The position numbers were made by a program, and so were the translations under genes. A DNA stretch of 64,000 bases from Aeromicrobium terrae (GTDB lineage Bacteria; Actinomycetota; Actinomycetes; Propionibacteriales; Nocardioidaceae), in NCBI RefSeq assembly GCF_008039565.1, contig NZ_VDUX01000003.1, positions 186,001-250,000 of the forward strand. The letters run 5' to 3'. Positions 30,117 through 58,935 of this stretch are shown here, piece by piece (the first letter of the stretch is position 1; each line of letters starts with the position of its first letter). The notes beneath the pieces were generated by a model. It was not told the origin of the DNA, made no database searches, and saw only the letters and a list, made by a program, of their open reading frames with translations.

Positions 30117-30122
30117 TAGAGT
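30117..30122 (+). promoter_or_regulatory. -10 element of aroA
   Basis: TAGAGT, 8 nt before the aroA ATG. No Shine-Dalgarno is visible, in keeping with a leaderless mRNA. Confidence 0.45.
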
Positions 30123-43092: not shown

Positions 43093-44532
43093 TCAGGGGC
43101 GGGCCCGCGGCACCGCGACGTACTGGGTCTCCAGGTACTCGTCGATGCCCGTGGGTCCGCCCTCGCGTCCCAGCCCGGAGGCCTTCATGCCCCCGAACGG
43201 AGCCGCCGGGTCGGACACGACGCCCTGGTTGACGCCGACCATGCCGGTCTCGAGCCGTTCGGCGAACCGCAGCGCACGGTCGAGGTCGGCGGAGTACACG
43301 TAGGCCGCGAGGCCGAACTCGGTGCCGTCAGCCCGCTGGAACGCCTCCTCCTCCGTGGCGAAGGTGCTGACCGCGGCGACCGGGCCGAAGATCTCCTCGG
43401 CCGCGATCCGGGCAGTCTCGGGCACGTCGGCCACGACGGTCGGCGCGTAGTAGAAGCCGCCGCCGTCGAGCCGCCGGCCGCCGGTCACCACCCGGGCGCC
43501 GTGCGCCACGGCGTCGTCCACCAGTCCGGCGATCTTCTCCAGCGCTGGTGCGCTGATCACCGGGCCCACGTCCGTCGCTGGGTCCGTGGCCGCGCCGACC
43601 ACCGACACCGCCATCCGATCGGCGAGGCCGTCGACGAACGCGTCGGCGACCGACTCGTGGACGAGGAAGCGGTTGGCCGCCGTGCACGCCTGACCGACGT
43701 TCCGGAGCTTCGCGATCATCGCGCCGTCGATCGCCCGCTCCACGTCGGCGTCCTCGAGCACGACGAACGGGGCGTTGCCGCCCAGCTCCATCGACGTGCG
43801 CAGCACGCGCGGCGCGGCGTCGGCCAGCAGCTGCCGGCCCACCGCGGTGGACCCGGTGAAGGTGAGCTTCCGCAGGCGCGGGTCACCGAGCAGCGGACCG
43901 GTCACCTCGGCCGGGCGCGTGGTGGTGACGACGTTCAGCACGCCGTCCGGCAGCCCGGCCTCGGCCAGCAGCCCGGCCAGCTCCAGCGACGTCAGCGGCG
44001 CGAGCTCCGCCGGCTTGAGCACGACGGTGCACCCGGCCGCCAGCGCGGGGGCGACCTTGCGGGCCGCCATCGCGAGCGGAAAGTTCCACGGCGTGATCGC
44101 GAGCACCGGTCCCACCGGGCGGCGGGACGTGACGATCCGTGACGCCCCGCTCGGCGACGGGCCGAACGACCCGTGCAGCCGCACCGCCTCCTCGGCGAAC
44201 CAGAGGAAGAACTCCGCGCCGTAGGCGACCTCGCCCCGCGCCTCGGCCAGGGGCTTGCCCATCTCCAGCGACATCAGCGTCGCGAGCGACTCGGTCCGCT
44301 CGAGCAGCCGGTCGTGGACGGCCCGCAGCACCGCAGCCCGTTCGCGCGGCGACGTCGCCGCCCACCCGGCCTGGGCCCGGGCCGCGGCGTCCATCGCGGC
44401 ACGGGCGACCTCGGGGCCGACGTCGGCGACCTCGGCGAGGACGCCGCCCGTGGACGGGTCGAGCACCGCGAAGTGCTCGCCGGCCTCGACCCACTCGCCG
44501 TCGACGAACGAGCCCGTGGGCCCGACCGCCAG
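43093..44532 (-). CDS. NAD(P)-dependent aldehyde dehydrogenase (succinate-semialdehyde dehydrogenase-like), unusual start
   Basis: 479 aa if started at CTG. Catalytic Cys is in NVGQACTAANRF and general base Glu in SMELGGNAPF; ITPWNFPLAM and FTGSTAVGRQ bind the cofactor. The N-terminal strand typical of the family (GSFVDGEWVEAGEHFAVLDP) is encoded, yet no ATG, GTG or TTG precedes it after the last in-frame stop. The first standard start is GTG at 44466, which would lose that strand. A CTG overlapping the upstream gene's stop region is the best candidate. Last gene of the island's first operon. Confidence 0.85.
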   Translation of the reverse strand: MAVGPTGSFVDGEWVEAGEHFAVLDPSTGGVLAEVADVGPEVARAAMDAAARAQAGWAATSPRERAAVLRAVHDRLLERTESLATLMSLEMGKPLAEARGEVAYGAEFFLWFAEEAVRLHGSFGPSPSGASRIVTSRRPVGPVLAITPWNFPLAMAARKVAPALAAGCTVVLKPAELAPLTSLELAGLLAEAGLPDGVLNVVTTTRPAEVTGPLLGDPRLRKLTFTGSTAVGRQLLADAAPRVLRTSMELGGNAPFVVLEDADVERAIDGAMIAKLRNVGQACTAANRFLVHESVADAFVDGLADRMAVSVVGAATDPATDVGPVISAPALEKIAGLVDDAVAHGARVVTGGRRLDGGGFYYAPTVVADVPETARIAAEEIFGPVAAVSTFATEEEAFQRADGTEFGLAAYVYSADLDRALRFAERLETGMVGVNQGVVSDPAAPFGGMKASGLGREGGPTGIDEYLETQYVAVPRARP

Positions 44533-44533
44533 G

Positions 44534-44968
44534 TCAGTGCTGATTGGCCTGCACCTTCAGGAAGTGCTCGACGGCGGCCTCGGCCACCTCGAGGTCCTGG
44601 ATCGCGGTACCCGAGCTGATGCCGATGCCGCCGACGACCTCGCCGTCGACCTCGACCGGCAGACCGCCGCCGATGATCGAGAACCGGCCGCTGTTGGTGT
44701 TGTGGATGCCGAACGTCGGCTCCCCCGGCACGCAGAGCTGGTTGTAGACGTGGGTGCCCTTGCGCGCCGTCGCACCCGTCCACGCCTTGTCGATCGCGGT
44801 CTGGATGCTGCTGACCTTGGCGCCGTCCATCTGCTCGAACAGGATCAGGTGGCCGGCCGGGTCGGTCACGGCGATGCTCATCGGGATGCCCATCTCGACG
44901 GACTTCTCGCGCGCGCCGTCGACGAGGACGGCCGCGTCGTCGCGGTCCAGGCGGGTGGTGGTCAGCAT
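44534..44968 (-). CDS. GlcG/HbpS family heme-binding-like protein
   Basis: 144 aa. The conserved core reads MGIPMSIAVTDPAGHLILFEQMDGAKVSSIQTAIDKAWTGA and ends with GGGLPVEVDGEVVGGIGISSG, the GlcG/HbpS fold. Such proteins occur beside glycolate, diol and aromatic degradation genes, and some bind heme or cobalamin. Their catalytic role is unsettled. There is no signal peptide. It overlaps the DapA-family gene by 1 nt (TGATG). Confidence 0.92.
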   Translation of the reverse strand: MLTTTRLDRDDAAVLVDGAREKSVEMGIPMSIAVTDPAGHLILFEQMDGAKVSSIQTAIDKAWTGATARKGTHVYNQLCVPGEPTFGIHNTNSGRFSIIGGGLPVEVDGEVVGGIGISSGTAIQDLEVAEAAVEHFLKVQANQH

Positions 44969-45891
44969 CAGCTCTCCTTGGTGGGTCGGTCGGTCATCAG
45001 GTCGGTGGTCATCAGGTAGGACTTGAGCGCGTCGAGGTCGTCGCCCTCGATCGGCCGGTACGGCGGGTACGGGTCGCCCGCCGGGATGCCGAGCAGGTTC
45101 ATCGACGCCTTCATCGTCGGCAGGAGCCCGTGCTTCATCCAGCGCGCCGGGTACAGCGAGAACTGCTGCTGCAGCCGCGCCGCCTCGGCGTATTCGCCGG
45201 CCTGGAACGCCTCCAGGAGGAAGCGGGCGATCCGCGCGACCGGCGGCGGCAGCGTGACGCCGGAGCCGCCCAGCTGCAGGGTGGCCAGCATCATCTGCAC
45301 CGTCGTGAAGTAGTGCGCGAGTCCCTCGCGGTCGATCTCCTCGATCAGCCGGCCGACGCGCGACAGGTCGCGCGAGCTCTCCTTCACGTACTGCACGGCC
45401 TCGTGCGACGCGAGCGCGATCGTCGCGTCGACGGACACGTTAGCCCCGGAGCCGGGGTTCAGGTAGAGCATCACCGGCAGCGAGGTCTCCTGCGACACGA
45501 GGTCGACGTACCGCTCGAGGTCCTGGGCCGTCGGCTCGCCGCCGAACGGCCGCAGCGGCATGAGCAGCTGGATCGCGTCCGCGCCCGACTCCTCCGCGAG
45601 CTGCGCCAGCCCGGCGCTGACCTTGAACGACGGGTGCGAGACGCCGACGACCACGGGCCGGCGACCGCCGACCAGCTCGATCGTCCGCGTGATCAGCTCG
45701 CGCCGCTGCGGCAGGTCGAGGTACTGGTACTCCTGCGCCTCGACGCCGGCCGCGATCACCATCGCGGCGTCGCAGTCCTCGACCACGTAGTCGACGCCCT
45801 GGGCCAGCGCGTCGTAGTCGACCGTCTGGTCGGCCGCGTACGGCGTCAGCGGCGGGACGACGAGCCCGGGGATCCTCAGGTCGCCGCTCAT
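44968..45891 (-). CDS. Dihydrodipicolinate synthase/N-acetylneuraminate lyase family protein
   Basis: 307 aa TIM-barrel class I aldolase. The Schiff-base lysine is K170 (VQYVKESSRD) and the catalytic tyrosine is Y143 (MLYLNPGSG). Lysine biosynthesis is not its likely role, since it is embedded between catabolic genes. Relatives include hydratase-aldolases of aromatic degradation and sugar-acid dehydratases. It overlaps the upstream monooxygenase by 4 bp (ATGA). Confidence 0.9.
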   Translation of the reverse strand: MSGDLRIPGLVVPPLTPYAADQTVDYDALAQGVDYVVEDCDAAMVIAAGVEAQEYQYLDLPQRRELITRTIELVGGRRPVVVGVSHPSFKVSAGLAQLAEESGADAIQLLMPLRPFGGEPTAQDLERYVDLVSQETSLPVMLYLNPGSGANVSVDATIALASHEAVQYVKESSRDLSRVGRLIEEIDREGLAHYFTTVQMMLATLQLGGSGVTLPPPVARIARFLLEAFQAGEYAEAARLQQQFSLYPARWMKHGLLPTMKASMNLLGIPAGDPYPPYRPIEGDDLDALKSYLMTTDLMTDRPTKES

Positions 45892-47153
45892 ACGAGGGAC
45901 GCCCGCTTCTTGAGCTCGTCGACCTGGAAACCGGCCACCGAGCGGTAGCGCTCGCCGATCGCCTTCAGCTCCTCGTCGGAGATGAGGTCGCTGAGCTGGT
46001 CGAACGGCTTGTCGCCGCTGCGCTCGTGAACCTCGCGCAGGATCGCGTCCGGCGGGTTGGCCCGGTTCATCCGGACGACCTTCGCCGTGGCCTCGACGCG
46101 CACGCCGTCGTACTCGCGCAGCGCCTCCTCGGTGACGCCGTGGCGCTTGATCGCGCCGGCGAGGAAGCGGGCGTCGAGGATGGCCTGGCCGGCGCCGTTC
46201 GAGCCGCGCGGGTACATCGGGTGCGCGGCGTCGCCCAGCAGGGTGGCCCGGCCGAGCGTCCACGTCGGCAGCGGGTCCCGGTCGACCATCGGGTAGATCA
46301 TGATCTTCTCGGTCTTCTTGAGCATGCCCGGGATGTCGAGGAAGTCGAAGTCCCAGTCGGCGTAGTAGGAGTAGAAGTCCTCCAGCCGGCCCTCGGCGTT
46401 CCAGTCGTAGGAGTCCGGTCGCGGGCGCTCGAGCGTGGCGACGAAGTTCATCAGCTGATTTCCCTGGCCGTCGATGTCGTCACGGATCGGGTAGACCATC
46501 AGCTTGCCCACGCTCATCCAGCCGATGCGGATCGTGTTCGCACCGCTCAGGAACGGCGGCATGGGGGTGGCACCGCGCCAGATCGTCAGGCCGGAGTAGA
46601 TCGGGTCGCCCTCGTCGGGGTAGAACGTCGAGCGCAGCACGGACTTGATGCCGTCGGCGCCGATCAGCATCGAGGCGCGGACGGACGGCAGCTCGTTGCC
46701 CTGCGGATCGACGAAGTGCGCCGTCACCGCGTCGTCGTGCAGGTCGACGTCGACGAGACGGTGGCCGGTGACCACGCTGTCCTGACCGAGCCGCTCGCGG
46801 ACGGCGTCCAGGAAGACCATCTGCATGTCGCCGCGGTGCAGCGAGAACTGCGGCCACGGGTAGCCGGCCGCCTCCCCCGCCGGCTCGGTGAAGATGTGCT
46901 GGCCGAAGCGGTTGTAGTACGACGCGTCCTTGGTGCGGATGCCGACCTGGTCGAGGGCCGGCACCAGGTCGAGCTCGTCGAGCTCGCGGACGGCGTGCGG
47001 CAGCAGGTTGATGCCGACGCCGACGGCCTTGAGCTCCGGCACGGCGTCGTAGACGCGGCAGCTCACCCCGATCTCGTGAAGGCTGAGAGCGAGGATCAGG
47101 CCTCCGGCGCCCGCTCCGACGATGAGGACCTCGGTCTCCTGAGGTGGTTGCAC
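45888..47153 (-). CDS. FAD-dependent monooxygenase (salicylate hydroxylase-like)
   Basis: 421 aa. The FAD motif VLIVGAGAGGLILALSLHEIG is N-terminal, LIGADGIKSVLR is the DG motif, and LGDAAHPMYPRGSNGAGQAI is the GD motif that binds FAD ribityl. These three place it in group A flavoprotein aromatic hydroxylases. The C-terminal REVHERSGDKPFDQL segment is seen in the 'flavin-dependent oxidoreductase' subgroup. It is the first gene after operator 1, with a GTG start and an AAGGAG Shine-Dalgarno. Confidence 0.92.
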   Translation of the reverse strand: MQPPQETEVLIVGAGAGGLILALSLHEIGVSCRVYDAVPELKAVGVGINLLPHAVRELDELDLVPALDQVGIRTKDASYYNRFGQHIFTEPAGEAAGYPWPQFSLHRGDMQMVFLDAVRERLGQDSVVTGHRLVDVDLHDDAVTAHFVDPQGNELPSVRASMLIGADGIKSVLRSTFYPDEGDPIYSGLTIWRGATPMPPFLSGANTIRIGWMSVGKLMVYPIRDDIDGQGNQLMNFVATLERPRPDSYDWNAEGRLEDFYSYYADWDFDFLDIPGMLKKTEKIMIYPMVDRDPLPTWTLGRATLLGDAAHPMYPRGSNGAGQAILDARFLAGAIKRHGVTEEALREYDGVRVEATAKVVRMNRANPPDAILREVHERSGDKPFDQLSDLISDEELKAIGERYRSVAGFQVDELKKRASLV

Positions 47154-47190
47154 GATGGGCTCCTTGTGGGATGGATCACTAAGATATGTG

Positions 47191-47207
47191 ACTTAAGTTA
47201 AATAATT
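47191..47207 (-). promoter_or_regulatory. Island operator 1 (AT-rich 17-mer)
   Basis: Reads AATTATTTAACTTAAGT on the minus strand. Two near-identical copies stand at 54494-54510 and 55926-55942; 12 of 17 positions agree in all three. This copy lies between marR and the first FAD monooxygenase and would control the operon running from 47153 to 43093. Confidence 0.7.
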
Positions 47208-47249
47208 AGCGGCAGCACGTCAACCCCATGCGGGGGATTGATGGGTGCG

Positions 47250-47972
47250 CTAGCCCCGGTCGGCGTCGACGGCGGAGCGGACCAGGCTGATGACGGCGTC
47301 CACGTCGGACTCCACGAGCGGCACGCCGACGTAGAAGGCCATGACGGTGAGGGCCGCGGCGCGGTCCTCCTCGGTCAGCTGGGAGTGGAAGTACCCGACG
47401 TGGCGGCGCAGTCCCTCCGACACCCGGAGCAGGACCCCACGGCCCTCGTCCGTGGCGTCCACGAGGATCACGCGGCGGTCCTTCTCCGACGCCCGCCGCT
47501 GGACGAGCCCCTTGTGCTCGAGCTCCTGGACCAGGCGCGACGCGAAGGCCGACGTGACGTCCAGCCGGTCGGCGATGCGACTCACCGCCAGCGGCCCCTC
47601 GGTCACTCCCCCGCCGACGATCTGGATCAGCGCCTGGTGCTGCAGCGGCTCGAGGTCGGCCTGGCGGGCGACCTCGTCGAAGATCCGGAACGTGCGGCGG
47701 ATGATGTAGCGCGCGCGGGCGACGCCCTCGAAGTAGGCGTCCTGCTCGTCGCGGGTGCGTCCGGCACCGCCGTGGAGCGCGGCGATCGTGGCGGAGACGC
47801 CGGGACCGACGTCCTCACCCTGGTGCCGGGACAGTGTTCCCACTGGCCTACCTACTCTCCGAGCCCTGCGGACGGTGTGTGCAGTGGACATCTTCCTCCG
47901 CTCGGCGGGCGACACGCCGGTTTCCAGCGAGTTCGGCGCGCCCCGCTCGGTGTTCGGGTCGCGCTCAGCCAT
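47250..47972 (-). CDS. MarR family transcriptional regulator
   Basis: 240 aa with an N-terminal extension of about 75 residues before the MarR fold. The winged helix includes PLQHQALIQIVGG, VSRIADRLDVTSAFASRLVQELEHKGLV and the wing DRRVILVDATDEGR. MarR proteins usually bind palindromes near their own catabolic genes and respond to aromatic ligands. GGAGG 7 nt upstream supports this start; an internal ATG at 47891 also has a purine-rich lead. It overlaps the EthD-like gene by 8 bp and is cotranscribed from the ABC operon. Confidence 0.92.
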   Translation of the reverse strand: MAERDPNTERGAPNSLETGVSPAERRKMSTAHTVRRARRVGRPVGTLSRHQGEDVGPGVSATIAALHGGAGRTRDEQDAYFEGVARARYIIRRTFRIFDEVARQADLEPLQHQALIQIVGGGVTEGPLAVSRIADRLDVTSAFASRLVQELEHKGLVQRRASEKDRRVILVDATDEGRGVLLRVSEGLRRHVGYFHSQLTEEDRAAALTVMAFYVGVPLVESDVDAVISLVRSAVDADRG

Positions 47973-48624
47973 GGAGCGCCTCCCGTGCGTCGTCGAACCG
48001 GGGGACGCCGCCGGCGACGAACCGGGTGCTCTCGTTGAACCAGGCCTTCTCCGCGAGCCGCTCGCGGCCCGGGGTGTCCACGGCGGCCTTCCGCTCCGGC
48101 GACGACAGCGCCGACTCGTCGGCCAGCCGGTGCAACGCGACGCGCGTCCACCCCGTGTTGGAGTCCGACACGTCGATGAGCCGCACGCCGAGCCACGCGT
48201 CGGCCTTGAGCAGGCCGGGGACGTGCTCGCTCTCGTACCAGGCGTCCAGCTCGGCCATGTCCTCCGCGGGCGTCGTGAACGCGACGACGAACAGCAGGGG
48301 CGCCGGGCCGGCGGCCTCGCCGTGCTCCTGCACGACCTCGCCGGTGACCCGGACGAACTGCCGGAGCCCGCCCATCCGCGTCTGGGTGGCCTCGGCGGTG
48401 GCCGCCTGCAGCTCCTTGTACTTGGGCGTGGTGAGGACGTCCAGGTCGTCGAGCTCGTAGACGAGGATGCCGCGGTCGGGGTCGTCCTCGGTCCGGTACC
48501 GGTGCGCGTCGGTGAAGCCGGGCACGCCCAGGCGGCCGGTCACGTGCTCGGCCTCGTACCAGGAGTAGAAGTCCGGCACGTCGGACGGCTCCGGACGCAG
48601 GACGGCGAGCAGCACGGCACTCAT
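47965..48624 (-). CDS. Tandem EthD-like (dimeric alpha-beta barrel) protein
   Basis: 219 aa made of two similar halves. The first has YSWYEAEHVTGRLGVPGF and the second has DAWYESEHVPGLLKADAW at the same place in each ferredoxin-like module. It therefore looks like an internal duplication forming a pseudo-dimer. Family members are found with oxidative degradation genes and may act on reactive ring-oxidation products. It overlaps the MFS gene by 4 bp. Confidence 0.8.
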   Translation of the reverse strand: MSAVLLAVLRPEPSDVPDFYSWYEAEHVTGRLGVPGFTDAHRYRTEDDPDRGILVYELDDLDVLTTPKYKELQAATAEATQTRMGGLRQFVRVTGEVVQEHGEAAGPAPLLFVVAFTTPAEDMAELDAWYESEHVPGLLKADAWLGVRLIDVSDSNTGWTRVALHRLADESALSSPERKAAVDTPGRERLAEKAWFNESTRFVAGGVPRFDDAREALHG

Positions 48625-49853
48625 GAGGACGTTCCCTTCGAGGTCAGGGCCGCGTCCGGGTGCGCGGCCTCGGTGGTGCGCCGGCGCTGGACGGACCAGC
48701 AGCCGGTGATGACGACGAGCAGCGCTGTGAGCGCGCCCGCGTAGGACCAGGCGCCGGCATAGCCCGACGCGGAGTCGACGACCACGCCGAACGTGATCGG
48801 GCCGACCATGAAGCCCAGGTAGAGCCCGAGTGCGGCGCGGCCCGTGGCACGGCCGACGGAGCCCGCGTCCGCGGACCGGACCACCGACGACATGATCACG
48901 GCGTTCGCCGCGAGGGCGCTGAAGCCGAATGCGACGGCGCCGAGCCACATCAGGACGTCGGGGCCGGGTGCTGCGACACCGCAGCAGGCGATGCCGAGCC
49001 CGGCGAGCAGTGCCAGGCCCATGAGCAGGAGCGGCACGTCCTCGACACGGTCGATGACGCGACCCCAGCCGAGCCGGGCGGCGACGCCGGTGCCGCCGAG
49101 GACCGCGGCCACCAGGCCGGCCTGACCGACGGGCAGGCCGATCGAGTCGTGCGCGAACAGCGGCAGGTAGACGTTGACGGCCTGGATGACGGCGCCGACG
49201 ACGAACGCGTAGGCGGTGAGCCACCAGACGGCGGCGTCGATCCGGGCGGGGCCGCGCTCCGACGTGGCGGACGGAGGAGCCTCCGGCCCGACCACCCACG
49301 CGGTGGCCATCAGACCCAGGACGGCGAGGACGACGCAGACCAGAACGGCGGGCCGCCAGCCCAACGCGACGGCGAGGCCGGGCAGCGCGAGTCCGGCGAG
49401 CACCTGGCTCCCCTGCACCCCGGACTGCTTGGCCCCGATGACGACGCCCTGGTTCCCGCGGTCGACGCCGCGCGCGACCGCGAGGTTCGTGGACGGGTTG
49501 GAGATGGCCACGGCGAGACCGGCGAGCGTGACGCCGACCAGCAGCGTGAACAGCGAGCCGCTCAGCCCCACGGTCACGATGGCCGCGCCGGCCGTGATGA
49601 ACGTCCACTGCAGCATCCGGCGCGGGCCGAGCCGGTCGGTGAGCCGTCCGGCGACGGGCGTGCCCACCGCGGCGGCGCCGAACGCGACCAGCCAGAGCTC
49701 ACCGAACTGCGTCGCCGAGAGGTCGAGGTCGTCGACGACCAGCGGCCCCAGCGCGCTCAACGAGTAGTGCGCGAGCGGCCCGACGCCCATGGCAAGGGCA
49801 AGGTAGCCGGCGAGGGCGGGGACGCCGACCGGCCGCGTGGTGGTGCTCGTCAT
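48621..49853 (-). CDS. MFS transporter
   Basis: 410 aa with 12 predicted transmembrane helices. The loop 2-3 signature GRLTDRLGPRRML is present, and a related GRVIDRVEDV occurs in the second half. It may import the island's substrate or export a product. Both neighbours overlap it by 4 bp, so it is translated as part of the ABC/monooxygenase operon. Confidence 0.92.
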   Translation of the reverse strand: MTSTTTRPVGVPALAGYLALAMGVGPLAHYSLSALGPLVVDDLDLSATQFGELWLVAFGAAAVGTPVAGRLTDRLGPRRMLQWTFITAGAAIVTVGLSGSLFTLLVGVTLAGLAVAISNPSTNLAVARGVDRGNQGVVIGAKQSGVQGSQVLAGLALPGLAVALGWRPAVLVCVVLAVLGLMATAWVVGPEAPPSATSERGPARIDAAVWWLTAYAFVVGAVIQAVNVYLPLFAHDSIGLPVGQAGLVAAVLGGTGVAARLGWGRVIDRVEDVPLLLMGLALLAGLGIACCGVAAPGPDVLMWLGAVAFGFSALAANAVIMSSVVRSADAGSVGRATGRAALGLYLGFMVGPITFGVVVDSASGYAGAWSYAGALTALLVVITGCWSVQRRRTTEAAHPDAALTSKGTSS

Positions 49854-51052: not shown

Positions 51053-51768
51053 CGCAGCTCCTCCAGGTACGCGAGCGACTCCTGCAGGCTCACGACGTCG
51101 GCGTACTTCTGGTCCATGTCGAGCAGGTTGACGCGGTGCGACAGCTGGATCCGGTCGAACGTGCACTCGGCGATGACGCCCATGCGGTAGTTCAGCGAGA
51201 ACCCGTCGAGCACGGTCGCGCGCACGCAGCCGCTCGTCGTGGATCCGCAGACCAGAACGGTGTCCGCGCCCAGCTCGACGAGCAGGCTCGCCAGCTGCGT
51301 CGCGAAGAACGCGCTCGGCTTGGGCTTGGCGATCACGATGTCGGCCTCGGTGGGCGCAATCTGCGGCATGATCCGGTTCCCCACGCCACGGTGGGCGCCG
51401 GTGTCCTCGCCGCGCCGGCGGTTCTTGTCGGCCCACCGGCCGGAGTCGAGCCCGTCGGGCCGCGGGTCCTGACCGGTCGTGTAGATCACCGGGATGCCGG
51501 ACCGCCGCGCGGCGTCGATGACCCGCCGCAGGTGCGGCAGCGCCTCCCACGCGTGCTCGCCACAGCTGTTGCGCCAGGTCTGCACCGACTCGAGGATCGG
51601 CGCGGGCTGGTCGCCGCAGAAGTTGTGGTTCACGTCGACGACGAGGAGCACCGGGGACGCGCCGAAGCCCGCCCGCTGTCCGTAGCCGGCCGCCGCCAGG
51701 ACCTCCCGCTCGTGCTCGGAGAGCAGATCGGTCGGCGTGGCGACGTCGGCGTTCTGGACCACCGTCAC
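51049..51768 (-). CDS. Cysteine hydrolase, isochorismatase fold (N-carbamoylsarcosine amidase/maleamate hydrolase-like)
   Basis: 239 aa. The catalytic triad is visible as D45 (LVVDVNHNF), a Lys of IAKPKPSAF (K148 or K150) and C181 (GSTTSGCVRAT). The conserved SGCVRAT elbow and RIMPQIAPTEAD segment are those of amide-cleaving members rather than true isochorismatase. It probably releases ammonia or carbamate from an amide made by ring opening. The GTG start overlaps the permease stop. Confidence 0.92.
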   Translation of the reverse strand: MTVVQNADVATPTDLLSEHEREVLAAAGYGQRAGFGASPVLLVVDVNHNFCGDQPAPILESVQTWRNSCGEHAWEALPHLRRVIDAARRSGIPVIYTTGQDPRPDGLDSGRWADKNRRRGEDTGAHRGVGNRIMPQIAPTEADIVIAKPKPSAFFATQLASLLVELGADTVLVCGSTTSGCVRATVLDGFSLNYRMGVIAECTFDRIQLSHRVNLLDMDQKYADVVSLQESLAYLEELR

Positions 51769-52610
51769 TCCGGGTCCCTCCCGCCGCTCACGCCGGCGTA
51801 CCAGGGCGCCACGCGGGACTCGAGCCAGCCGACGCCGCGCGTCAGGCCGACGCCGAGCGCCATGAGCACGACCACCGGGACGAACAGGGCCGACGTGTCG
51901 AACTGCTGGCCGGCGTTGATGATCAGGCCGCCGAGACCGCCGATGGACGTGAAGAACTCGGCGATGACGATGCCGATGACGGCTCGGCCGATGCCCAGGC
52001 GCAGGCCCGTCATGATGTGCGGGACCGTCGACGGCAGGATGATCTTGCGCATCACCGCGGCCTCGCTGGCCATGAAGGACTTGCCCACCTCCACCAGCGA
52101 CTTCGGGACGGAGTTCACCCCCGCCCACGTGCTGATGACGATCGGGAACACGGTCATCACGACCACGACGGCGACCTTCACCGAGAAGCCCAGGCCGAAC
52201 CACAGGATGAGCAGCGGGATGAACGCCACCATCGGCATCGCGTATCCGGCGGTGATGTAGACGCCGAACGCGGCCTCGACGATGCGGTAGCGGCCGAGCA
52301 CCAGTCCGAGCGGGATGCCGCCCAGCGCGGCGATCAGGTAGCCGAGCGCCAGCGGCTTGAGGCTGTCGAACAGCGCTGTCTGCAGCGTCCCGTCCTGCAC
52401 CTCCGCCTTGAACGTCTTGGCGATGTCGGTCGGGTAGGACGCGAAGATCGGGTCCATCCGCCGGCCGAAGAACTCCCACGCGAGCATGAGGACGACCAGC
52501 GACGCGATCGTCACGAACGTGTAGCGCCGGTTCCACAGGAAGCGGCGCCAGAAGCCCCGTCCGGCCTCGGCGGTCTCCGCGGTCGTCGCGGTGCTGCTGG
52601 CGATGCTCAT
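51765..52610 (-). CDS. ABC transporter permease, NitT/TauT (SsuC-like) type
   Basis: 281 aa with about six transmembrane helices. The coupling (EAA) loop is seen in GKSFMASEAAVMRKIILPSTVPHIMTGLRLG. The FASYPTDIAKTFK and GRYRIVEAAFG segments are typical of the BPD_transp_1 SsuC family, which imports sulfonates, nitrate, taurine, thiamine precursors and aromatic acids. It works with the ATPase and lipoprotein genes upstream. Confidence 0.93.
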   Translation of the reverse strand: MSIASSTATTAETAEAGRGFWRRFLWNRRYTFVTIASLVVLMLAWEFFGRRMDPIFASYPTDIAKTFKAEVQDGTLQTALFDSLKPLALGYLIAALGGIPLGLVLGRYRIVEAAFGVYITAGYAMPMVAFIPLLILWFGLGFSVKVAVVVVMTVFPIVISTWAGVNSVPKSLVEVGKSFMASEAAVMRKIILPSTVPHIMTGLRLGIGRAVIGIVIAEFFTSIGGLGGLIINAGQQFDTSALFVPVVVLMALGVGLTRGVGWLESRVAPWYAGVSGGRDPE

Positions 52611-53470
52611 CGCTCCTCCTCACGGGGCGCGTCCCCGTGGACGCCGGCCATCAGCCGGCTCCAGATCGCGTAGCGGGTGTGGGCGAACTCGTCGAGGCCG
52701 CGGATGGCGAAGAAGTCCTCGCGCGGGCCCTTGATCGGGATGTCGAAGATCGTGTCGACACGGCCCGGGTTGGGGGCCATCAGCACGACCCGGTCGGCCA
52801 GCAGGACGGCCTCGTCGAGGTCGTGCGTGACGAAGACGATCGTCTTGCCGGTCTCGCGGTGGATGCGGAGGACCTCCATCTGGAGGCCCTCCCGCGTCTG
52901 CGCGTCGAGGGCGCCGAACGGCTCGTCCATCAGCAGGACCTCGGGCTCGATGCTGAGCGCGCGGGCCAGGCCGACGCGCTGCTTCATGCCTCCGGACAGC
53001 TGGTCGGGACGACGGTCCATCGCGTTGCCCAGGCCGACGAGCTCGAGCTTCTCCGTGGCGATCCGGCGGCGCTCGTCCGCCGGGACCCCCTTCACCTCGA
53101 GGCCGAACTCGACGTTCTGCAGCGCCGTGCGCCACGGGAACAGCTCGGCGTGCTGGAAGACCAGCCCCCGGTCGTACCCGCAGCCGGTGACGACCTTGTC
53201 GCCCACCGTGACGGTGCCGCTGGACGCCTTCTCCAGGCCCATGATGATGCGCAGGAGCGTCGTCTTGCCGCAGCCGCTCAGGCCGGTGAGGGCGACGATC
53301 TCGCCGTCCTCGACCTCCAGGGACACCCGGTCGAGTGCCTGGACCGTCGACGTCGACTTCCGCTCGGTGATGGTGAACCGCTTCGACACCTCGTCGATGA
53401 CGACGCGGGGCCGGCGGCCACCGTCTGCTGGTGTGGTCATGGGTTCACTGTCGAGCGTGCTGGTGGTCAT
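52607..53470 (-). CDS. ABC transporter ATP-binding protein, NitT/TauT type
   Basis: 287 aa. Walker A GLSGCGKTT (about 63-71), Q-loop VFQHAELFPW, signature LSGGMKQRVGLA, Walker B VLLMDEPFGALD and the H-loop VTHDLDEA are all intact. It belongs to the SsuB/TauB group. A second ATG (10 codons in) is an alternative start. It begins 1 nt after the lipoprotein stop. Confidence 0.95.
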   Translation of the reverse strand: MTTSTLDSEPMTTPADGGRRPRVVIDEVSKRFTITERKSTSTVQALDRVSLEVEDGEIVALTGLSGCGKTTLLRIIMGLEKASSGTVTVGDKVVTGCGYDRGLVFQHAELFPWRTALQNVEFGLEVKGVPADERRRIATEKLELVGLGNAMDRRPDQLSGGMKQRVGLARALSIEPEVLLMDEPFGALDAQTREGLQMEVLRIHRETGKTIVFVTHDLDEAVLLADRVVLMAPNPGRVDTIFDIPIKGPREDFFAIRGLDEFAHTRYAIWSRLMAGVHGDAPREEER

Positions 53471-53471
53471 G

Positions 53472-54479
53472 TCACTTCTCCAGACGCTTCAGAGCCGCCT
53501 GCTGGTACTGGTCGTCCACGAGCGACTTCACGTCGACCGGCTTCTTGAGCTGGCCGGACTCGCGGAGGATCTTCTCCAGGTACTCGAGCTTCGGCATGTC
53601 CACGCCGCCGTCCGGGTCGACGAGCTTCTTCTGGATGATCAGGTCCTGCGTGTAGGTGACCATCGGGTCGTCCGGCGAGACCTTGGCGGCCTTGGCCGAG
53701 ATCGCAGCGGCCTCGTCCGGGTGGTCGTAGGCGTAGCGCAGGCCCTCGATCAGACCGGCCATGTATCGGGTGGCCAGGTCGCCCTTGTTCTTCAGGCTGT
53801 CGTTGCGGGCGATGATCATGTACCGCGGGTAGTCCGGGATGACGTCCGCCGAGAGGGCCAGCACGTTGAGGCCGTCCTTCTCCGCCTTCGGCACGAAGTC
53901 CGTCGCGTCGGCCGTGGCGGCCACGGTGCCGGCCTTCACCGCGCGGTACCGGTCGGGGTTGCCGCCCGCGTTCACCGGCTTGATGTCCTTCCAGTCGACG
54001 CCCGCGTCGGACAGCATCAGCTGCGCGACGAGCGCCGGGAGCCCGGCCGGCGACGAGATGCCGATCGGCTTGCCCTTGAGGTCCTTGATGCTCTTGTACT
54101 TGCCCTGGGCGAAGATCGCGAACGGCATGCCCGCCATGGACGAGCCGATCACCTTGGCGCCGAGACCGCCCCGCGCCTCGGCGAGGTACAGGCCGCCCGG
54201 GCTCTGCTCGATGGCGTCGACCTCACCGGCGGCCAGGGCGGGGTACACCTGCTCCGCACTCTTCAGCTCGACGAACTTGACCTTGACGCCCTGCTTCTCG
54301 TAGAAGTCCTTCTCCTCCGACATGCGCAGGAAGCCGCAGTCGCTCGTGCACGGCATGCGGCCGACGACCCAGGTCTTGTCGTCGCCGCCACTGCCGGATC
54401 CCGAGCCGCACGCGCTGAGCGCGAGTGCCGCCATCACGGCGACCGCGGTGGCGAGGCTGGAGAGTGCTCTCGTCTTCAT
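53472..54479 (-). CDS. ABC transporter substrate-binding lipoprotein (NMT1/SsuA-like)
   Basis: 335 aa. The signal peptide ends in a lipobox with C24 (ALALSACGSG). The mature protein has the NMT1/THI5-like layout, with FVELKSAEQVYPALAAGEVDAI and KGKPIGISSPAGLPALVA. It delivers the island's substrate to the permease. The Shine-Dalgarno is AGGAGCC. First gene of the long operon down to marR, 15 nt downstream of operator 2. Confidence 0.93.
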   Translation of the reverse strand: MKTRALSSLATAVAVMAALALSACGSGSGSGGDDKTWVVGRMPCTSDCGFLRMSEEKDFYEKQGVKVKFVELKSAEQVYPALAAGEVDAIEQSPGGLYLAEARGGLGAKVIGSSMAGMPFAIFAQGKYKSIKDLKGKPIGISSPAGLPALVAQLMLSDAGVDWKDIKPVNAGGNPDRYRAVKAGTVAATADATDFVPKAEKDGLNVLALSADVIPDYPRYMIIARNDSLKNKGDLATRYMAGLIEGLRYAYDHPDEAAAISAKAAKVSPDDPMVTYTQDLIIQKKLVDPDGGVDMPKLEYLEKILRESGQLKKPVDVKSLVDDQYQQAALKRLEK

Positions 54480-54493
54480 GGGGGGCTCCTGGT

Positions 54494-54510
54494 AATTAGT
54501 TAACTGAAGT
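54494..54510 (+). promoter_or_regulatory. Island operator 2 (AT-rich 17-mer)
   Basis: AATTAGTTAACTGAAGT, with the 8-bp palindrome AGTTAACT at its centre. It lies just upstream of the ABC lipoprotein start codon, in the transcribed leader or on the promoter. It matches copies at 47191 and 55926. Confidence 0.75.
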
Positions 54511-54609
54511 TGATGATTTGAGTGAATGATCGGTACCGTAACGGGTTCGCCTGTGATGGACAACACATCAGCCGAACTTTCTTCAAAACCCCTGATCAGA
54601 GAGGGGAGA

Positions 54610-54954
54610 TCAGGCCTTGTAGCGGACCTCGAACGTGAGACAGCCGTCCTCCGAGGTCCACGGGCCGTGCTCCATGCCGGGCGGCCGGCAGGCGAAGCTG
54701 CCGGCCACGAAGGTCTCGTCCAACCGGGTGTCGTGGAGCGACCCCTCGAGGACGTAGACCTCCTCCCAGAAGTCGTGGACCTGGACGCCGTTGGGCGTCG
54801 TGTCGGTCCCGGGCTCGAACCGCAGGATGCGGGTCGCCACTCCCCCGTCGCCGTCGCGAGCCAGGATGCGCTCGGTCAGCTCGGGCACCACGCCTTCGCA
54901 CGGGGTGAACTCGACGGTGTCGACGGGACGGAACTCCAGCTCGGGCTTGGCCAT
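54610..54954 (-). CDS. Cupin domain protein
   Basis: 114 aa. The two cupin motifs appear as HDFWEEVYVLEGSLHD and GSFACRPPGMEHGPW. Metal ligands likely include the His and Glu residues in these, but motif 1 is not the canonical HxH. It resembles ChrR-like or acetylacetone-cleaving-type small cupins. It follows SBP2 by 39 nt on the same strand, ahead of operator 2. Confidence 0.88.
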   Translation of the reverse strand: MAKPELEFRPVDTVEFTPCEGVVPELTERILARDGDGGVATRILRFEPGTDTTPNGVQVHDFWEEVYVLEGSLHDTRLDETFVAGSFACRPPGMEHGPWTSEDGCLTFEVRYKA

Positions 54955-54993
54955 GGTGCTGCTCCTCAGGTGCGTGGGGTCAGGGCTGTGCGT

Positions 54994-55902
54994 TCAGGGT
55001 TGGGTGGCCGGGGTGGCCACGGCGGTGTCGAGGTCGGTGCCGGCCCCCGGCAGGCCGGCCCACTCCGCGAAGTCGCGGAGGCCGGCGAGAGCGGCGGGTG
55101 AGATGGCGGGCTCGTAGAACGGCAGGTCGCGCTCGATGATCCCCGCGATGAGTCCGGTCTCCATGTCCGGGAACAGCCCGGTGGCCACCTTCGTCGCGAG
55201 CGACGGGTCCTCGCGCAGGGCGTCCTGTGCGCGCACGAGGGCTCGTACCGCCGCCGCGGCGACGTCGGGCTGCTCCTCGGCCAGCTTCCGCGTGGTCATC
55301 AGGGCCGGGAACGTGGTCAGCGCCGGTTCCTGCTCGCCACGACGCGCGTCGAGGATCACCTTGCCGACGCCACGCTGGACGGCCACCTCCGCGCCCATGC
55401 CGTTGGCCCAGAACGCGTCGATGCGCCCGTGCGCGAGGGCGTCGGCGGCCGTGACGCCGAACGAGACGGAGTCGGAGTCGGTGCCGGGCACCGGGGCGAT
55501 GTCGATGCCCCGCTCCTCCACGTCGATGCCGGAGAGGGCGAACAGGCGGCGCAGCCCGTCGTCGGGCCCGGGGGCCGCCCCGATGCGGAGGTCGCGCAGC
55601 GACGACCAGGTCCCCGGCTCGAGCTCGGAGTCCGCCGGGACGACGAGGAACCAGTACATGTGCTGCGCGAGCGCGGCGAGGAGCACGGTGTCCGTCCAGC
55701 CGCGGGCGTCGTAGAGCGGAGCGTGCGCGGCACCCGCGAGGAGGTCGATCTCGCCGTCGCGCAGCGCGCCGGCGGCGTCGGTGACGGGGAACCGCAGCTC
55801 GAGGGTGACGTCCAGTCCCTCGTCGCGCAGCGTCCCGAGCTCCACCGCCGCGACGGCGGGGAAGTACGAGTTGGAGATCAGGTCTGGAACGGCGAGACGC
55901 AC
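54994..55902 (-). CDS. Substrate-binding-protein-like (NMT1/THI5 fold) without signal peptide
   Basis: 302 aa starting VRLAVPDLISNSYFP with an AGGAG Shine-Dalgarno. It has the ABC substrate-binding fold (TLRDEGLDVTLELRF, GEIDLLAGAAHAPLYD, RIDAFWANGMGAE), but the N-terminus goes straight into the first beta strand with no signal peptide or lipobox. It may be a cytosolic ligand-binding protein or an enzyme-like THI5 relative rather than a transporter subunit. It is divergent from the aldehyde dehydrogenase operon. Confidence 0.82.
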   Translation of the reverse strand: MRLAVPDLISNSYFPAVAAVELGTLRDEGLDVTLELRFPVTDAAGALRDGEIDLLAGAAHAPLYDARGWTDTVLLAALAQHMYWFLVVPADSELEPGTWSSLRDLRIGAAPGPDDGLRRLFALSGIDVEERGIDIAPVPGTDSDSVSFGVTAADALAHGRIDAFWANGMGAEVAVQRGVGKVILDARRGEQEPALTTFPALMTTRKLAEEQPDVAAAAVRALVRAQDALREDPSLATKVATGLFPDMETGLIAGIIERDLPFYEPAISPAALAGLRDFAEWAGLPGAGTDLDTAVATPATQP

Positions 55903-55925
55903 GTGGAACTCCTCGGTCGAATGTG

Positions 55926-55942
55926 ATTTAGTTAACGCAAGT
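55926..55942 (+). promoter_or_regulatory. Island operator 3 (AT-rich 17-mer)
   Basis: ATTTAGTTAACGCAAGT, between the divergent SBP2 and aldehyde dehydrogenase genes, 28 nt before the latter's ATG. It matches operators 1 and 2. Confidence 0.75.
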
Positions 55943-55970
55943 ACCATACTTAAGATCAAGGATTTGTCGA

Positions 55971-57476
55971 ATGTCCCTGGCAGACCAAGGTGCGGCCGCC
56001 GTGATGCGGTCCCTGGCTGATCGCGAGCCGGCGCTGCTCGTCGGGGACGACTGGTCCCCCGCCCGGTCCGGGGAGGTCCGCGAGACCGTGGACCCGTCCA
56101 CCGGGTCACCCTTCGCACGCTACGCCGTAGCCGGACCCGCGGACGTCGACGCCGTGGTCGCGGCAGCGCGCGAGGCTCAGCCGGCGTGGGCCGCACTGCC
56201 CGTGCAGGCGCGCGCGACCTGCCTCGAGCGGCTGGCCGACGTCATCGAGGAGCACGCCGAGGAGATCGCCCTCGTGGACGCGATCGACGCCGGGCTGCCG
56301 GTGGAGCGGATGCTCGGCGACGTCGCCGGTGCGGTCCGCGCGCTGCGCGGCTGGCGCGGCGTGGCCGAGACCCTGCGCGGCGAGGTGCTCCCGGACCCGG
56401 ACGTCCTCCACTACACGCGGTACCGCCCGTTCGGGGTCGTCGCCAAGATCGTCGCCTACAACCACCCGTTCCTGTTCGCGGTCAAGGGCAGCCTCGCCGC
56501 GCTGGTCGCGGGCAACACCGTCGTCGTGAAGGCCGCGGACCAGACGCCGATGTCGGCGCTGCTGCTCGCCGACCTCGTGCGCGGCGTCTTCCCGCCCGGC
56601 GTCTTCTCCGTCCTCACCGGTGACGGCCGGACCGGCGACGCCCTGGTCACCCATTCCAACGTGCGGCGCATCGGCTTCACCGGCAGCGCCGCGACCGGAC
56701 GCCTCATCCAGCGCCGCGCGGCCGAGGACGCCGTCCGCTCGGTGTCGCTCGAGCTCGGCGGCAAGAACGCGATGATCGTCTTCCCCGACGTCGACGTCCC
56801 GCGCGTCGCCCACGAGGTCGTCAAGGCGATGAACCTGCGGGCCAACGCCGGCCAGTCCTGCGGCTCCACGTCGCGACTCTTCCTCCACGACGAGGTCCAC
56901 GACGTCTTCGTCGACGCACTCCGCCAGGAGCTCGAGGCGTTGACCCTCGGTGCTGCGTACGACCGCGCCGCCGACATGGGCCCGGTGATCTCCGCCCAGC
57001 ACGCCGAGCGCGTCCGCGGGTTCATCGACGAGGCGTCCACGTCCGCGAAGCTCGTCACGGGCGGCCTCGACGACCGGCGCGTGCCCGACCGCGGCTTCTT
57101 CGTCGCCCCGACCGTGTTCACCGACGTCGACGACCAGGCCCCGCTCGCCACGGACGAGGTGTTCGGTCCGGTCATCGCCGGCTTCCGCTGGAACGACCGC
57201 GACGACATGCTCCGTCGCGTCAACGCCGTCGACCACGGCCTCACCGCGAGCATCTGGACGCGCGACGTGTCCGAGGCGATTCGCACGGCCGACGCCGTCG
57301 AGTCCGGCTACGTCTGGGTGAACGACAGCACCACCCACTACTGGGGCACCCCGTTCGGCGGCTGGAAGGACAGCGGCCTCGGCCGGGAGGAGTCCCGCGA
57401 GGAGCTGCTCGGCTACCTGCAGCTGAAGAGCGTGCACGTCCGGGTCGACGACCCCACCACGAAGGAGAACCGATGA
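55971..57476 (+). CDS. Aldehyde dehydrogenase
   Basis: 501 aa. Catalytic Cys in NAGQSCGSTSRL and general-base Glu in SLELGGKNAM. The usual PWNxP cofactor motif is AYNHPFLF, a change found in some substrate-specific branches. FTGSAATGRL is the NAD loop. First gene of a three-gene operon with a nitrilase and DUF2848, under operator 3. An aldehyde made in the pathway is the probable substrate. Confidence 0.93.
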   Translation: MSLADQGAAAVMRSLADREPALLVGDDWSPARSGEVRETVDPSTGSPFARYAVAGPADVDAVVAAAREAQPAWAALPVQARATCLERLADVIEEHAEEIALVDAIDAGLPVERMLGDVAGAVRALRGWRGVAETLRGEVLPDPDVLHYTRYRPFGVVAKIVAYNHPFLFAVKGSLAALVAGNTVVVKAADQTPMSALLLADLVRGVFPPGVFSVLTGDGRTGDALVTHSNVRRIGFTGSAATGRLIQRRAAEDAVRSVSLELGGKNAMIVFPDVDVPRVAHEVVKAMNLRANAGQSCGSTSRLFLHDEVHDVFVDALRQELEALTLGAAYDRAADMGPVISAQHAERVRGFIDEASTSAKLVTGGLDDRRVPDRGFFVAPTVFTDVDDQAPLATDEVFGPVIAGFRWNDRDDMLRRVNAVDHGLTASIWTRDVSEAIRTADAVESGYVWVNDSTTHYWGTPFGGWKDSGLGREESREELLGYLQLKSVHVRVDDPTTKENR

Positions 57477-58282
57477 GGACAGCGCTGGTGCAGGTGGAGA
57501 GCCCGCTCGACGAGCCCTGGCAGGAGCGGGTCGAGCGCGTCGGCTCGCTCGTGTCCGGGCTCGACGCGCCCGACCTGGTCGTGCTGCCCGAGCTCTGGGC
57601 CACCGGCTACTTCGCGTTCGACGGCTACGACGAGCTGGCACAGCCGATGACCGGCCCGCTCGTCGAGACGCTGCGCGGCTGGGCCAGTGACCTCGGCATC
57701 CACCTGGCTGCCGGCAGCGTGCTCGAGCGCGACGAGACCGGCCGGCTGCACAACACCGCCCTGCTCATCGGGCCGGACGGCGAGCTCACGCTGACGTACC
57801 GGAAGGTGCACGTCTTCGGCTACCAGTCGTTGGAGTCGAAGCTGCTCAGCCCCGGCGACGACGCGACCGTCGCGGAGACGGACCTCGGCACCGTCGGCAT
57901 GACCACCTGCTACGACCTCCGGTTCCCCGAGCTCTACCGCCACCTCGTCGACCAGGGCGCGCGGATCGTCATCGTGCCCGCCGCCTGGCCGGCCCCGCGC
58001 CTGGAGCACTGGCAGCTGTTCACGCGCGCCCGAGCCGTCGAGGACCAGGTCGTGCTGATCGCGTGCAACGCGGCGGGTCGTCAGGGCGACGTCGAGCTCG
58101 CCGGCCACAGCGCGGTCATCGACCCGTGGGGCCGCGTGCTCGCCGAGGCCGGGTCCGACGAAGAGGTGGTCGTCGTCGACGTCGACCTGGACGTCGTGGA
58201 CGCCACCCGCATCGAGTTCCCGGTGCTCGACGACCGTCGGCTCCGGACCACCAGCACCTTCGCCCGAGAGGACCTCGCATGA
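57473..58282 (+). CDS. Carbon-nitrogen hydrolase (nitrilase superfamily, amidase-like)
   Basis: 269 aa. The Glu-Lys-Cys triad is E40 (VVLPELWATGY), K111 (TYRKVHVFG) and C146 (GMTTCYDLRFPELYR). Length and the CYDLRFPE elbow fit the omega-amidase/Nit2-like branch, which cleaves linear amides, rather than true nitrilases. It overlaps both neighbours by 4 bp. Together with the cysteine hydrolase it gives the island two separate amide-cleaving enzymes. Confidence 0.93.
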   Translation: MRTALVQVESPLDEPWQERVERVGSLVSGLDAPDLVVLPELWATGYFAFDGYDELAQPMTGPLVETLRGWASDLGIHLAAGSVLERDETGRLHNTALLIGPDGELTLTYRKVHVFGYQSLESKLLSPGDDATVAETDLGTVGMTTCYDLRFPELYRHLVDQGARIVIVPAAWPAPRLEHWQLFTRARAVEDQVVLIACNAAGRQGDVELAGHSAVIDPWGRVLAEAGSDEEVVVVDVDLDVVDATRIEFPVLDDRRLRTTSTFAREDLA

Positions 58283-58935
58283 CCACGCTCACCGTCGCCG
58301 GCAGCCAGGAGACCCTGACGCTGACCGACCCCCGGCTCGTCGTGGCCGGCTACACGGCCCGCGACCAGGCTGCCGTCCGCGCCCACATCGACGAGCTCGC
58401 CGCGATCGGCGTCGCTCCCCCGCCGGCCGTGCCGATGTTCTACCCCCTCGACGCGTCGCTCATCACGACCGACAGCGCCATCACGGTGGCCGGCGCGCAG
58501 ACGTCCGGCGAGGTCGAACCGATCGTGGTCTGGTGCGGCGGGCAGCGCTACCTCGGCATCGGCAGCGACCACACCGACCGCGAGCTCGAGACCGAGAGCG
58601 TCGCCGACTCGAAGGCCGCCGCACCGAAGCCCATCGGCAGCAGCGTGCTGCCGCTCGACGACGCCGTGGCCCGGTGGGACGACATCGCCGTCCGCTCGTG
58701 GGTCGACGGCGAGCTGTACCAGGAGGGTCAGCTGTCCGCGATGCTCCGGCCCGACGACCTCATCGGCATGCTGACCGAGCGCGGCGAGCAGCCCACCGGG
58801 GACGCCGTGATGTTCTGCGGCACGGTTCCGCTGCTCGGTGGCACGTTCGTGCACGGCACGAAGTGGCGCATGGAGCTCGGCGTGCCCGGCGGCGACGCGA
58901 TCACCCTCGAGTACGAGGTGTCCGTCTCCGGCTGA
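58279..58935 (+). CDS. DUF2848 protein
   Basis: 218 aa. Recognised as DUF2848, a family related to the fumarylacetoacetate hydrolase fold, by the segments GIAPPPAVPMFYPLDASLITTD-like, IGSDHTDRELET and GTKWRMELGVPGGDAI. Asp/Glu/His residues in SDHTDRELE could bind a metal. The function is not established. It ends 0 nt from the convergent hydrolase gene. Its place after an aldehyde dehydrogenase and an amidase suggests a late ring-cleavage-product step. Confidence 0.85.
   Translation: MTTLTVAGSQETLTLTDPRLVVAGYTARDQAAVRAHIDELAAIGVAPPPAVPMFYPLDASLITTDSAITVAGAQTSGEVEPIVVWCGGQRYLGIGSDHTDRELETESVADSKAAAPKPIGSSVLPLDDAVARWDDIAVRSWVDGELYQEGQLSAMLRPDDLIGMLTERGEQPTGDAVMFCGTVPLLGGTFVHGTKWRMELGVPGGDAITLEYEVSVSG

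Follow-up and report, generated by a model that had tools for sequence, protein, structure and literature searches.

The window analysed here, a stretch of 64,000 nucleotides on a 465-kb contig of the 3.1-Mb, high-GC genome of Aeromicrobium terrae, carries a 16-kb catabolic block at 43093..58935. A sequence-only reading had proposed that this block encodes an undescribed degradation pathway, and gene calls with Pfam and NCBIfam placed all of its named components within these limits: a NitT/TauT ATP-binding cassette (ABC) system, a major facilitator superfamily (MFS) transporter, two FAD_binding_3 hydroxylases of different subfamilies (FAD1 and FAD2), a cysteine hydrolase (CysH), a CN_hydrolase (Nit), a DHDPS-family lyase (DapA), an HbpS-like protein, a Cupin_7 protein, two aldehyde dehydrogenases (ALDH1 and ALDH2) and DUF2848. 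The tandem repeat noted in an EthD-like protein was borne out by half-versus-half alignment (score 72.5 versus a best of 55.0 in 500 shuffles), though no Pfam match exceeded its cut-off (DUF4286, 21.1 bits versus 25.8). To these we add a regulator of the MarR family, a member of the NMT1 family that lacks a signal peptide (SBP2), the transcription units and a shared promoter motif. The results partly support a ring catabolism of a known kind, initiated by a flavin monooxygenase, with an undescribed gene set and candidate ring-opening enzymes. No description of the set was found in the open-access literature, a search that leaves out most subscription papers. The features are as follows.

43093..44526, minus strand: ALDH1, succinate-semialdehyde-dehydrogenase-like (Pfam Aldedh, 1.3e-160; earliest in-frame ATG/GTG/TTG at 44466)
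44534..44968, minus strand: HbpS/GlcG-like protein (PF03928, 2.9e-35)
44968..45891, minus strand: DapA-family class I lyase (PF00701, 6.5e-35)
45888..47153, minus strand: FAD1, group A flavin monooxygenase of the PRK07538 family (nearest solved structures 2rgj/3c96)
47191..47206, minus strand: operator-like site upstream of the FAD1 operon (16-base pattern)
47250..47891, possible longer start at 47972, minus strand: MarR-family regulator (PF12802, 2.2e-10)
47965..48624, minus strand: tandem EthD-like (DUF4286-type) protein with internal repeat
48621..49853, minus strand: MFS transporter (PF07690, 6e-39)
49850..51052, minus strand: FAD2, PnpA/HspB-like flavin monooxygenase (PF01494, 3.4e-58)
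51049..51768, minus strand: CysH, isochorismatase-fold amidohydrolase (PF00857, 8.6e-33)
51765..52610, minus strand: ABC permease (PF00528, 1.2e-28)
52607..53470, minus strand: ABC ATPase (PF00005, 3e-31)
53472..54479, minus strand: ABC substrate-binding lipoprotein (PF09084, 7.3e-24)
54495..54510, plus strand: operator-like site upstream of the ABC-CysH-FAD2 operon (16-base pattern)
54610..54954, minus strand: Cupin_7 protein (PF12973, 3.6e-10)
54994..55902, minus strand: SBP2, binding-protein fold without signal peptide, candidate enzyme (PF13379/PF09084)
55927..55942, plus strand: operator-like site in the divergent promoter of SBP2 and ALDH2; the palindrome AAGTACCATACTT (55939-55951) overlaps it
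55971..57476, plus strand: ALDH2, aldehyde dehydrogenase (PF00171, 3.8e-140; 67% identity to its Georgenia homologue)
57473..58282, plus strand: Nit, nitrilase superfamily (CN_hydrolase; PF00795, 9.4e-54; nearest solved structure NIT2)
58279..58935, plus strand: DUF2848, fumarylpyruvate-hydrolase-like predicted fold

Transcription units and a shared promoter site

The gene coordinates define four closely packed units. Unit 1 (minus strand, 54479 to 47250) runs from the binding lipoprotein through the ATPase, permease, CysH, FAD2, MFS and tandem EthD genes to MarR; unit 2 (minus strand, 47153 to 43093) comprises FAD1, DapA, HbpS and ALDH1; unit 3 (minus strand, 55902 to 54610) holds SBP2 and the cupin; and unit 4 (plus strand, 55971-58935) holds ALDH2, Nit and DUF2848. 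Given a GTG start of SBP2 at 55902, the gap between the divergent units 3 and 4 measures 68 bp. Pfam, NCBIfam and the N-terminus together identify a NitT/TauT importer, with permease, ATPase and an exported NMT1-type binding lipoprotein that begins with a hydrophobic stretch containing LSAC (hydropathy 2.38, SAC motif). Catalytic-type motifs were found in CysH, Nit, ALDH1, ALDH2 and DapA, and we take their residues to be the catalytic ones.

When the promoter gaps were aligned by eye, a stretch of ~29 bp proved common to those preceding units 1 and 2 and to the one that separates units 3 and 4. The 16-base core pattern of this stretch, WTTWKTTAACNNAAGT, has exactly three matches at ≤1 mismatch in the genome, all in promoter regions of the block, and the reversed pattern used as a control has no genome match. 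Within the window, three matches at ≤2 mismatches compare with a mean of 0.00 in 100 shuffles. As the pattern was read off its own three sites, these matches hold by construction; the evidence lies in its uniqueness alone and in a palindrome found across genera. This palindrome, AAGTACCRTACTT, overlaps the third site and occurs three times in 1.45 Mb of sequence (80 FAD2 loci, described below, plus the window): once in the window itself, once in Georgenia, where it lies in the gap separating SBP2 from the binding-protein gene, and once in Streptomyces, directly upstream of a UbiD gene lying between Nit and MarR. Both foreign loci carry a MarR homologue at 47–48% identity. In Streptomyces sp. 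SBT349 the palindrome stands just 5' of the start of the UbiD-family gene (L030:4280-5722); the window genome has no member of the UbiD family.

We infer that MarR binds the three operator-like sites, and the four units are probably one regulon. The FAD1-DapA-HbpS-ALDH1 unit probably belongs to it, because the 16-base pattern is confined to the three promoter regions of the block.

Conserved neighbourhood of FAD2

Among solved structures, FAD2 matched PnpA (6ain) best at 2.3e-69, ahead of HspB (7da9), to which it aligned over almost its entire length at 2.1e-59. HspB, the 6-hydroxy-3-succinoylpyridine 3-monooxygenase of nicotine catabolism, is a distant relative, and its flanking pathway genes are unlike the block's. 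We take the substrate of PnpA to be a nitrophenol. A FAD2 scan covered contigs from 84,980 species, and the best 80 of 171 confirmed loci were kept. The nearest FAD2 relatives on a tree are from Actinomycetota; in the genus itself FAD2 is uncommon, reaching E ≤1e-80 in 2 of 49 genomes, the window's own among them. The loci of Georgenia subflava (L031) and Streptomyces SBT349 (L030) contain FAD2, CysH, the three ABC genes, cupin, SBP2, Nit, DUF2848 and MarR at 47–79% identity. Seven others (three Amycolatopsis, three Actinomadura and one Pseudonocardia) combine FAD2, SBP2, cupin, Nit and DUF2848, all without CysH. The conserved unit is FAD2, SBP2, cupin, DUF2848 and the nitrilase. That core neighbours are conserved in other genera and promoters share a site bears out the earlier view of a coherent catabolic cluster. 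The trio of DUF2848, GlcG and tandem EthD that had been offered as its marker did not hold up in the neighbourhood search, as GlcG/HbpS goes with FAD1-DapA (in Salipiger) and EthD with an enamidase-like module (26 of 27 EthD-bearing FAD2 loci).

UbiD genes occur in 15 of the 80 loci and matches to the large subunit of Mo-hydroxylases in 18; these raw counts, which have no background rate, fit a (hetero)aromatic acid as substrate. UbiD together with an enamidase and succinate-semialdehyde dehydrogenase (SSADH) would suit a pyrrole-2-carboxylate route in some of the other FAD2 loci, and no title describing such a cluster was found in the open-access literature. Of the 80 loci, 23 are under 15 kb, and absences in these are weak evidence.

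Three further loci were observed. A same-genus genome (G035, L122:6678-19617) has a FAD2 relative (42%), two aldehyde dehydrogenases, a nitrilase-like gene (29%) and a CysH-like gene (37%), with no SBP2 match in the stretch. On a Bradyrhizobium sp. 187 plasmid (L117:8614-11281), FAD2-like, DUF2848 and cupin genes lie side by side, possibly as a minimal core. In Thioclava (L118:8944-14005), a FAD2-like gene (38%) stands with arylmalonate-decarboxylase, Asp/Glu-racemase and isochorismatase genes.

Two alternating partner sets of FAD2

An enamidase-like amidohydrolase is present in 30 of the 80 loci, of which 27 also have AA_synth and 26 EthD. SBP2 is likewise present in 30, accompanied by the cupin in 18, DUF2848 in 15 and a Nit match in 10. 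By tblastn count, the amidohydrolase and SBP2 meet in a single locus (L090; Fisher p 2.6e-7, relatedness ignored), and EthD and SBP2 in none (p 7.9e-8, relatedness ignored). The window is an SBP2-type locus, and is unusual in carrying EthD and SBP2 together, which never meet in the 80 loci. The alternative partner was assigned through a single representative, L042, which matched the enamidase structure 2vun at 7.7e-100; the window lacks this enzyme and has SBP2, cupin, DUF2848 and Nit in its place. Additional arylmalonate-decarboxylase-family and isochorismatase genes were seen in the L042 locus. We take the arylmalonate-decarboxylase-family genes of L042 and L118 to be of maleate-isomerase type.

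On a FAD2 tree of 81 sequences (29 labelled amidohydrolase, 30 SBP2, and 22 unlabelled, namely the 21 with neither partner and L090), at least eight partner changes are needed, five of them being forced by well-supported branches; shuffled labels required ~20. Sister FAD2 sequences can have differing partners (L073/L080 and L083/L087 are examples), which suggests a common type of FAD2 product as the target of both sets.

SBP2, a binding-protein fold without export signal

SBP2 belongs to the NMT1 family (PF13379/PF09084), and its predicted model has a predicted local distance difference test (pLDDT) value of 89.9. It lacks the export signal of NitT/TauT binding proteins: from either start, the highest 12-residue hydropathy in the first 40 residues was 1.5, versus 2.38 for the true binding protein of unit 1. 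This measure was plain hydropathy over in-frame starts rather than a signal-peptide predictor. From any start within 60 codons, 28 of 30 locus SBP2s stayed below 2.0 (the exceptions being L069 at 2.04 and L090 at 2.23), and 10 of the 30 have a stop ≤15 codons upstream of the match. As a control, 7 of 8 binding-protein homologues reached 2.0. The alignment (A5) contained 25 of the 30 locus sequences plus the window, cut manually at the first strand; L040, L067, L078, L092 and L100 were dropped as near-duplicate or truncated. SBP2 had no match in the plasmid search and, in the phylum samples, one at E 1e-30 among 396 genomes, the window's own.

The modelled fold is that of the enzymes Thi5, MqnD and DszB; by sequence Thi5 matched SBP2 weakly (E 0.008), and no common reaction is known. 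A fold search by itself was rejected as proof of an enzyme because transporters, a regulatory domain and enzymes alike score high. SBP2 may nevertheless be a transport-type protein turned enzyme that acts on the FAD2 product. We tentatively propose, as possible rather than probable, that it represents a new class of cytoplasmic binding-protein-fold enzymes that, with the cupin, opens or decarboxylates an N-heteroaromatic FAD2 product, as a non-homologous and repeatedly exchanged replacement for enamidase-type ring opening, in an undescribed multi-phylum pathway with DUF2848 as an acylpyruvate-type hydrolase. It is unlikely, though deserving serious weight, that SBP2 is no enzyme at all and acts as a binding protein or, in the manner of the CmpC/NrtC C-terminal domain, as a cytoplasmic sensor or a regulator of transport; the same fold scores accommodate this alternative, and the missing export signal sets SBP2 apart from NitT/TauT binding proteins.

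Cupin, DUF2848 and the amide hydrolases

The Cupin_7 protein has invariant residues H60, E64, E65, H96 and E109 in an alignment of 18 sequences (A7; 17 of 21 locus sequences plus the window). DUF2848 had no sequence match to solved structures. Its predicted structure has a fumarylpyruvate-hydrolase (FAH) fold, and 17 sequences (A6; the window's own and 16 of the 19 from loci, three plasmid loci being dropped) share the acidic residues E78, E80, D97, D100 and E104. Predicted fold and acidic residues place DUF2848 in the FAH superfamily, so that it is unlikely to be the ring-cleavage enzyme, or a ring-cleavage dioxygenase, for which it had earlier been put forward. Of 296 genomes, five carry it, counting that of the window, and no paper on it was found in the searched open-access literature.

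Nit matched NIT2 (2w1v) best among solved structures (6.3e-40) and has the E-K-C residue motifs; all nine of its NCBIfam matches fell under cut-off. CysH matched 3ot4/3uao (8.6e-26) and also an N-carbamoylsarcosine amidohydrolase (6.6e-25). We take 3uao to be the maleamate amidohydrolase NicF.

Several plasmids carry related arrangements. On Priestia megaterium pMLY91_1 (L026:8310-10345), DUF2848 is followed by a nitrilase-related coding sequence of 386 residues whose end matches the cupin (52%), apparently a Nit-cupin fusion that would join both functions. Nit (54%), DUF2848 (48%) and cupin (64%) cluster on an unannotated plasmid of Arthrobacter sp. StoSoilB13 (L020:13128-16482), where the 28.6-kb stretch has no FAD2 or SBP2 match. 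In plasmids of Pantoea, Thioclava, Phyllobacterium and Paracoccus (L114-L116, L021), DUF2848 adjoins an amidase, in two cases with a tripartite ATP-independent periplasmic (TRAP) transporter and a 'putative hydro-lyase'; this is a second, distinct DUF2848 context.

Proposed pathway and alternatives

We consider the chances about even that the block is one MarR-type regulon that takes up and degrades a hydroxypyridine-like N-heteroaromatic acid or amide, and does so with no ring-cleavage dioxygenase of a classical type. The set of genes, their conserved neighbourhood, the promoter sites that they share, the fold predictions and the alternation of the partner sets are results of the analysis; we infer an N-heterocycle as substrate and the following steps and order. 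The NitT/TauT system and MFS transporter would import the substrate, CysH would hydrolyse its amide and FAD2 would hydroxylate the ring. SBP2 and/or the cupin may then transform and open the FAD2 product, after which DUF2848, acting in the way of a fumarylpyruvate hydrolase, could cleave the 2-oxo (acylpyruvate-type) acid so formed, Nit would release ammonia from an omega-amide and ALDH2 would oxidize an aldehyde. As a side arm, FAD1, DapA, HbpS and ALDH1 might link a PhzS-like, possibly decarboxylating hydroxylation to a Schiff-base lyase and aldehyde oxidation.

Where the sequence-only reading had left the compound as aromatic or N-containing, the latter is favoured, though not proven. An N-heterocycle is favoured because the alternative FAD2 partner is enamidase-like, the ring module is accompanied by a NIT2-like enzyme and HspB is a near relative of FAD2; the single loci L042 and L118 add arylmalonate-decarboxylase-family and isochorismatase genes. 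Enamidase hydrolyses 6-oxo-tetrahydronicotinate (PMC7356986), and in fungal nicotinate degradation enamidase and omega-amidase have roles in pyridine breakdown (PMC9304392). The Pfam matches of the cluster proteins, a search that did not extend to the rest of the genome, include no benzenoid or classical ring-cleavage family, in line with the earlier remark that no classical ring-cleavage dioxygenase is present; the family of the nic 2,5-dihydroxypyridine dioxygenase is also absent from them.

Several points weigh against this interpretation. PnpA outranks HspB as the solved relative of FAD2, none of the block's enzymes is close to a characterized pyridine enzyme, and no homologue of known function links SBP2 or the cupin to ring opening. 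The 80 loci, as the best of 171, are a non-random sample, only 57 of them reach 15 kb, and 21 have neither partner set (union 59). A graph-based count gave 30 amidohydrolase loci, 28 SBP2 loci and none with both, versus 30, 30 and one by the laxer tblastn. CysH is in just 8 of the 80, and one of the ten Nit matches (L100) reaches only 29% identity. Counts of UbiD and Mo-hydroxylase matches are uncalibrated, many Mo-hydroxylase matches being at 26–33% and some at locus ends, and UbiD shows no partner preference, with 5 of its 15 loci having each partner (Fisher p 0.78). The FAD2 tree comes from a quick search and gives the window a long branch, and the operator pattern was derived by eye from the very sites it matches.

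A benzenoid pathway, in which FAD2 would be a PnpA-like hydroxylase of a nitro-/aminophenol or hydroxybenzoate and the amidases would merely strip a substrate amide, seems to us distinctly unlikely. It would account for PnpA as the top match of FAD2, and benzenoid acids or phenols are the substrates of several solved proteins related to FAD1 and FAD2. Against it stand the enamidase-like alternative partner, which meets SBP2 in a single locus of the 80, and the NIT2-like Nit that accompanies FAD2, SBP2 and cupin in the seven actinobacterial loci without CysH. The block also differs from the PnpA pathway in lacking, among its Pfam matches, the classical ring-cleavage families of a lower pathway.

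The side arm raises a further alternative, that the block consists of two unrelated adjacent operons with FAD1-DapA-HbpS-ALDH1 drawn from another pathway. FAD1 scored above the curated PRK07538 cut-off (542.3 bits versus 400) and matched 2rgj at 7e-86, compared with 3e-27 for NicC (5eow). The structures 2rgj/3c96, deposited as a flavin-containing monooxygenase, we take to be PhzS; FAD1 differs in context: the operon that it shares with a lyase and an aldehyde dehydrogenase looks catabolic, rather than devoted to phenazine synthesis. DapA had only distant DapA-family matches among solved structures (best 3.5e-22), and the top NCBIfam match of ALDH1 was SSADH, under cut-off (543.6 bits versus 646). 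In the plasmid search, DapA had a single close match, in Salipiger abyssi (58–59%; the next was 37%), where FAD1 (64%), DapA, HbpS and EthD form a separate operon. The FAD1-DapA-HbpS unit is in none of the 80 FAD2 loci, where FAD1 matches reach at most 35%, DapA has none and HbpS matches at 29–30% in two; FAD1 alone matches two Variovorax plasmids at 60–61%. The separate Salipiger operon and the absence of the unit from the FAD2 loci count for this alternative, and the latter also against our main reading. Both operons are nonetheless preceded by one operator-like pattern with no match in the genome outside the block, and we judge two unrelated operons improbable.

The kpi 4-hydroxypyridine route of Arthrobacter sp. 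IN13 resembles the block in combining a FAD_binding_3 monooxygenase, an unusual, non-classical ring opener, a hydrolase and an FAH-family hydrolase, the last represented in the block by DUF2848 (PMC7356986). It differs in that KpiA is reported to be nearest to a 2-heptyl-4-quinolone hydroxylase, the ring opener KpiC is of the amidohydrolase family and the table of 16 open reading frames has no entry for an ABC, binding-protein, cupin, nitrilase or isochorismatase gene (PMC7356986). A divergent version of the known nic (nicotinate) or kpi pathway is very improbable: MarR, MFS, FAD hydroxylase, NicF-like hydrolase and FAH-fold protein do recall the kpi layout and what we take to be the nic layout, but the Pfam matches of the cluster include neither a KpiC-type amidohydrolase (Amidohydro_1) nor a classical ring-cleavage dioxygenase, and FAD1 is far nearer 2rgj than NicC.

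If the N-heteroaromatic regulon is real, it would assign functions to DUF2848, a Cupin_7 group and a family of binding-protein-like proteins that lack a signal, and would identify a degradation route present in several phyla. Two non-homologous partner sets behind one monooxygenase offer a direct way to test which enzyme handles the FAD2 product.

Flanking genes and minor observations

An alpha/beta hydrolase gene directly downstream (58936-59715) was left out of the cluster because it overlaps the 59715-60881 gene by one base and had zero matches at E 1e-5 across the 80 FAD2 loci. The EthD-like protein is 35–36% identical to three proteobacterial homologues and 27% to a fourth, and was found in 2 of 396 genomes in the phylum samples at E 1e-15, the window's own among them. 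In the same-genus genome G035 (L130:9268-12751, compared with window 31411-60913), the two genes homologous to those at 30122 and 60913 are ~3.5 kb apart versus 29.5 kb here, so the block sits in a segment missing from that genome. Elsewhere in the window, positions 13100-16849 hold a 1249-residue open frame with strong coding bias.

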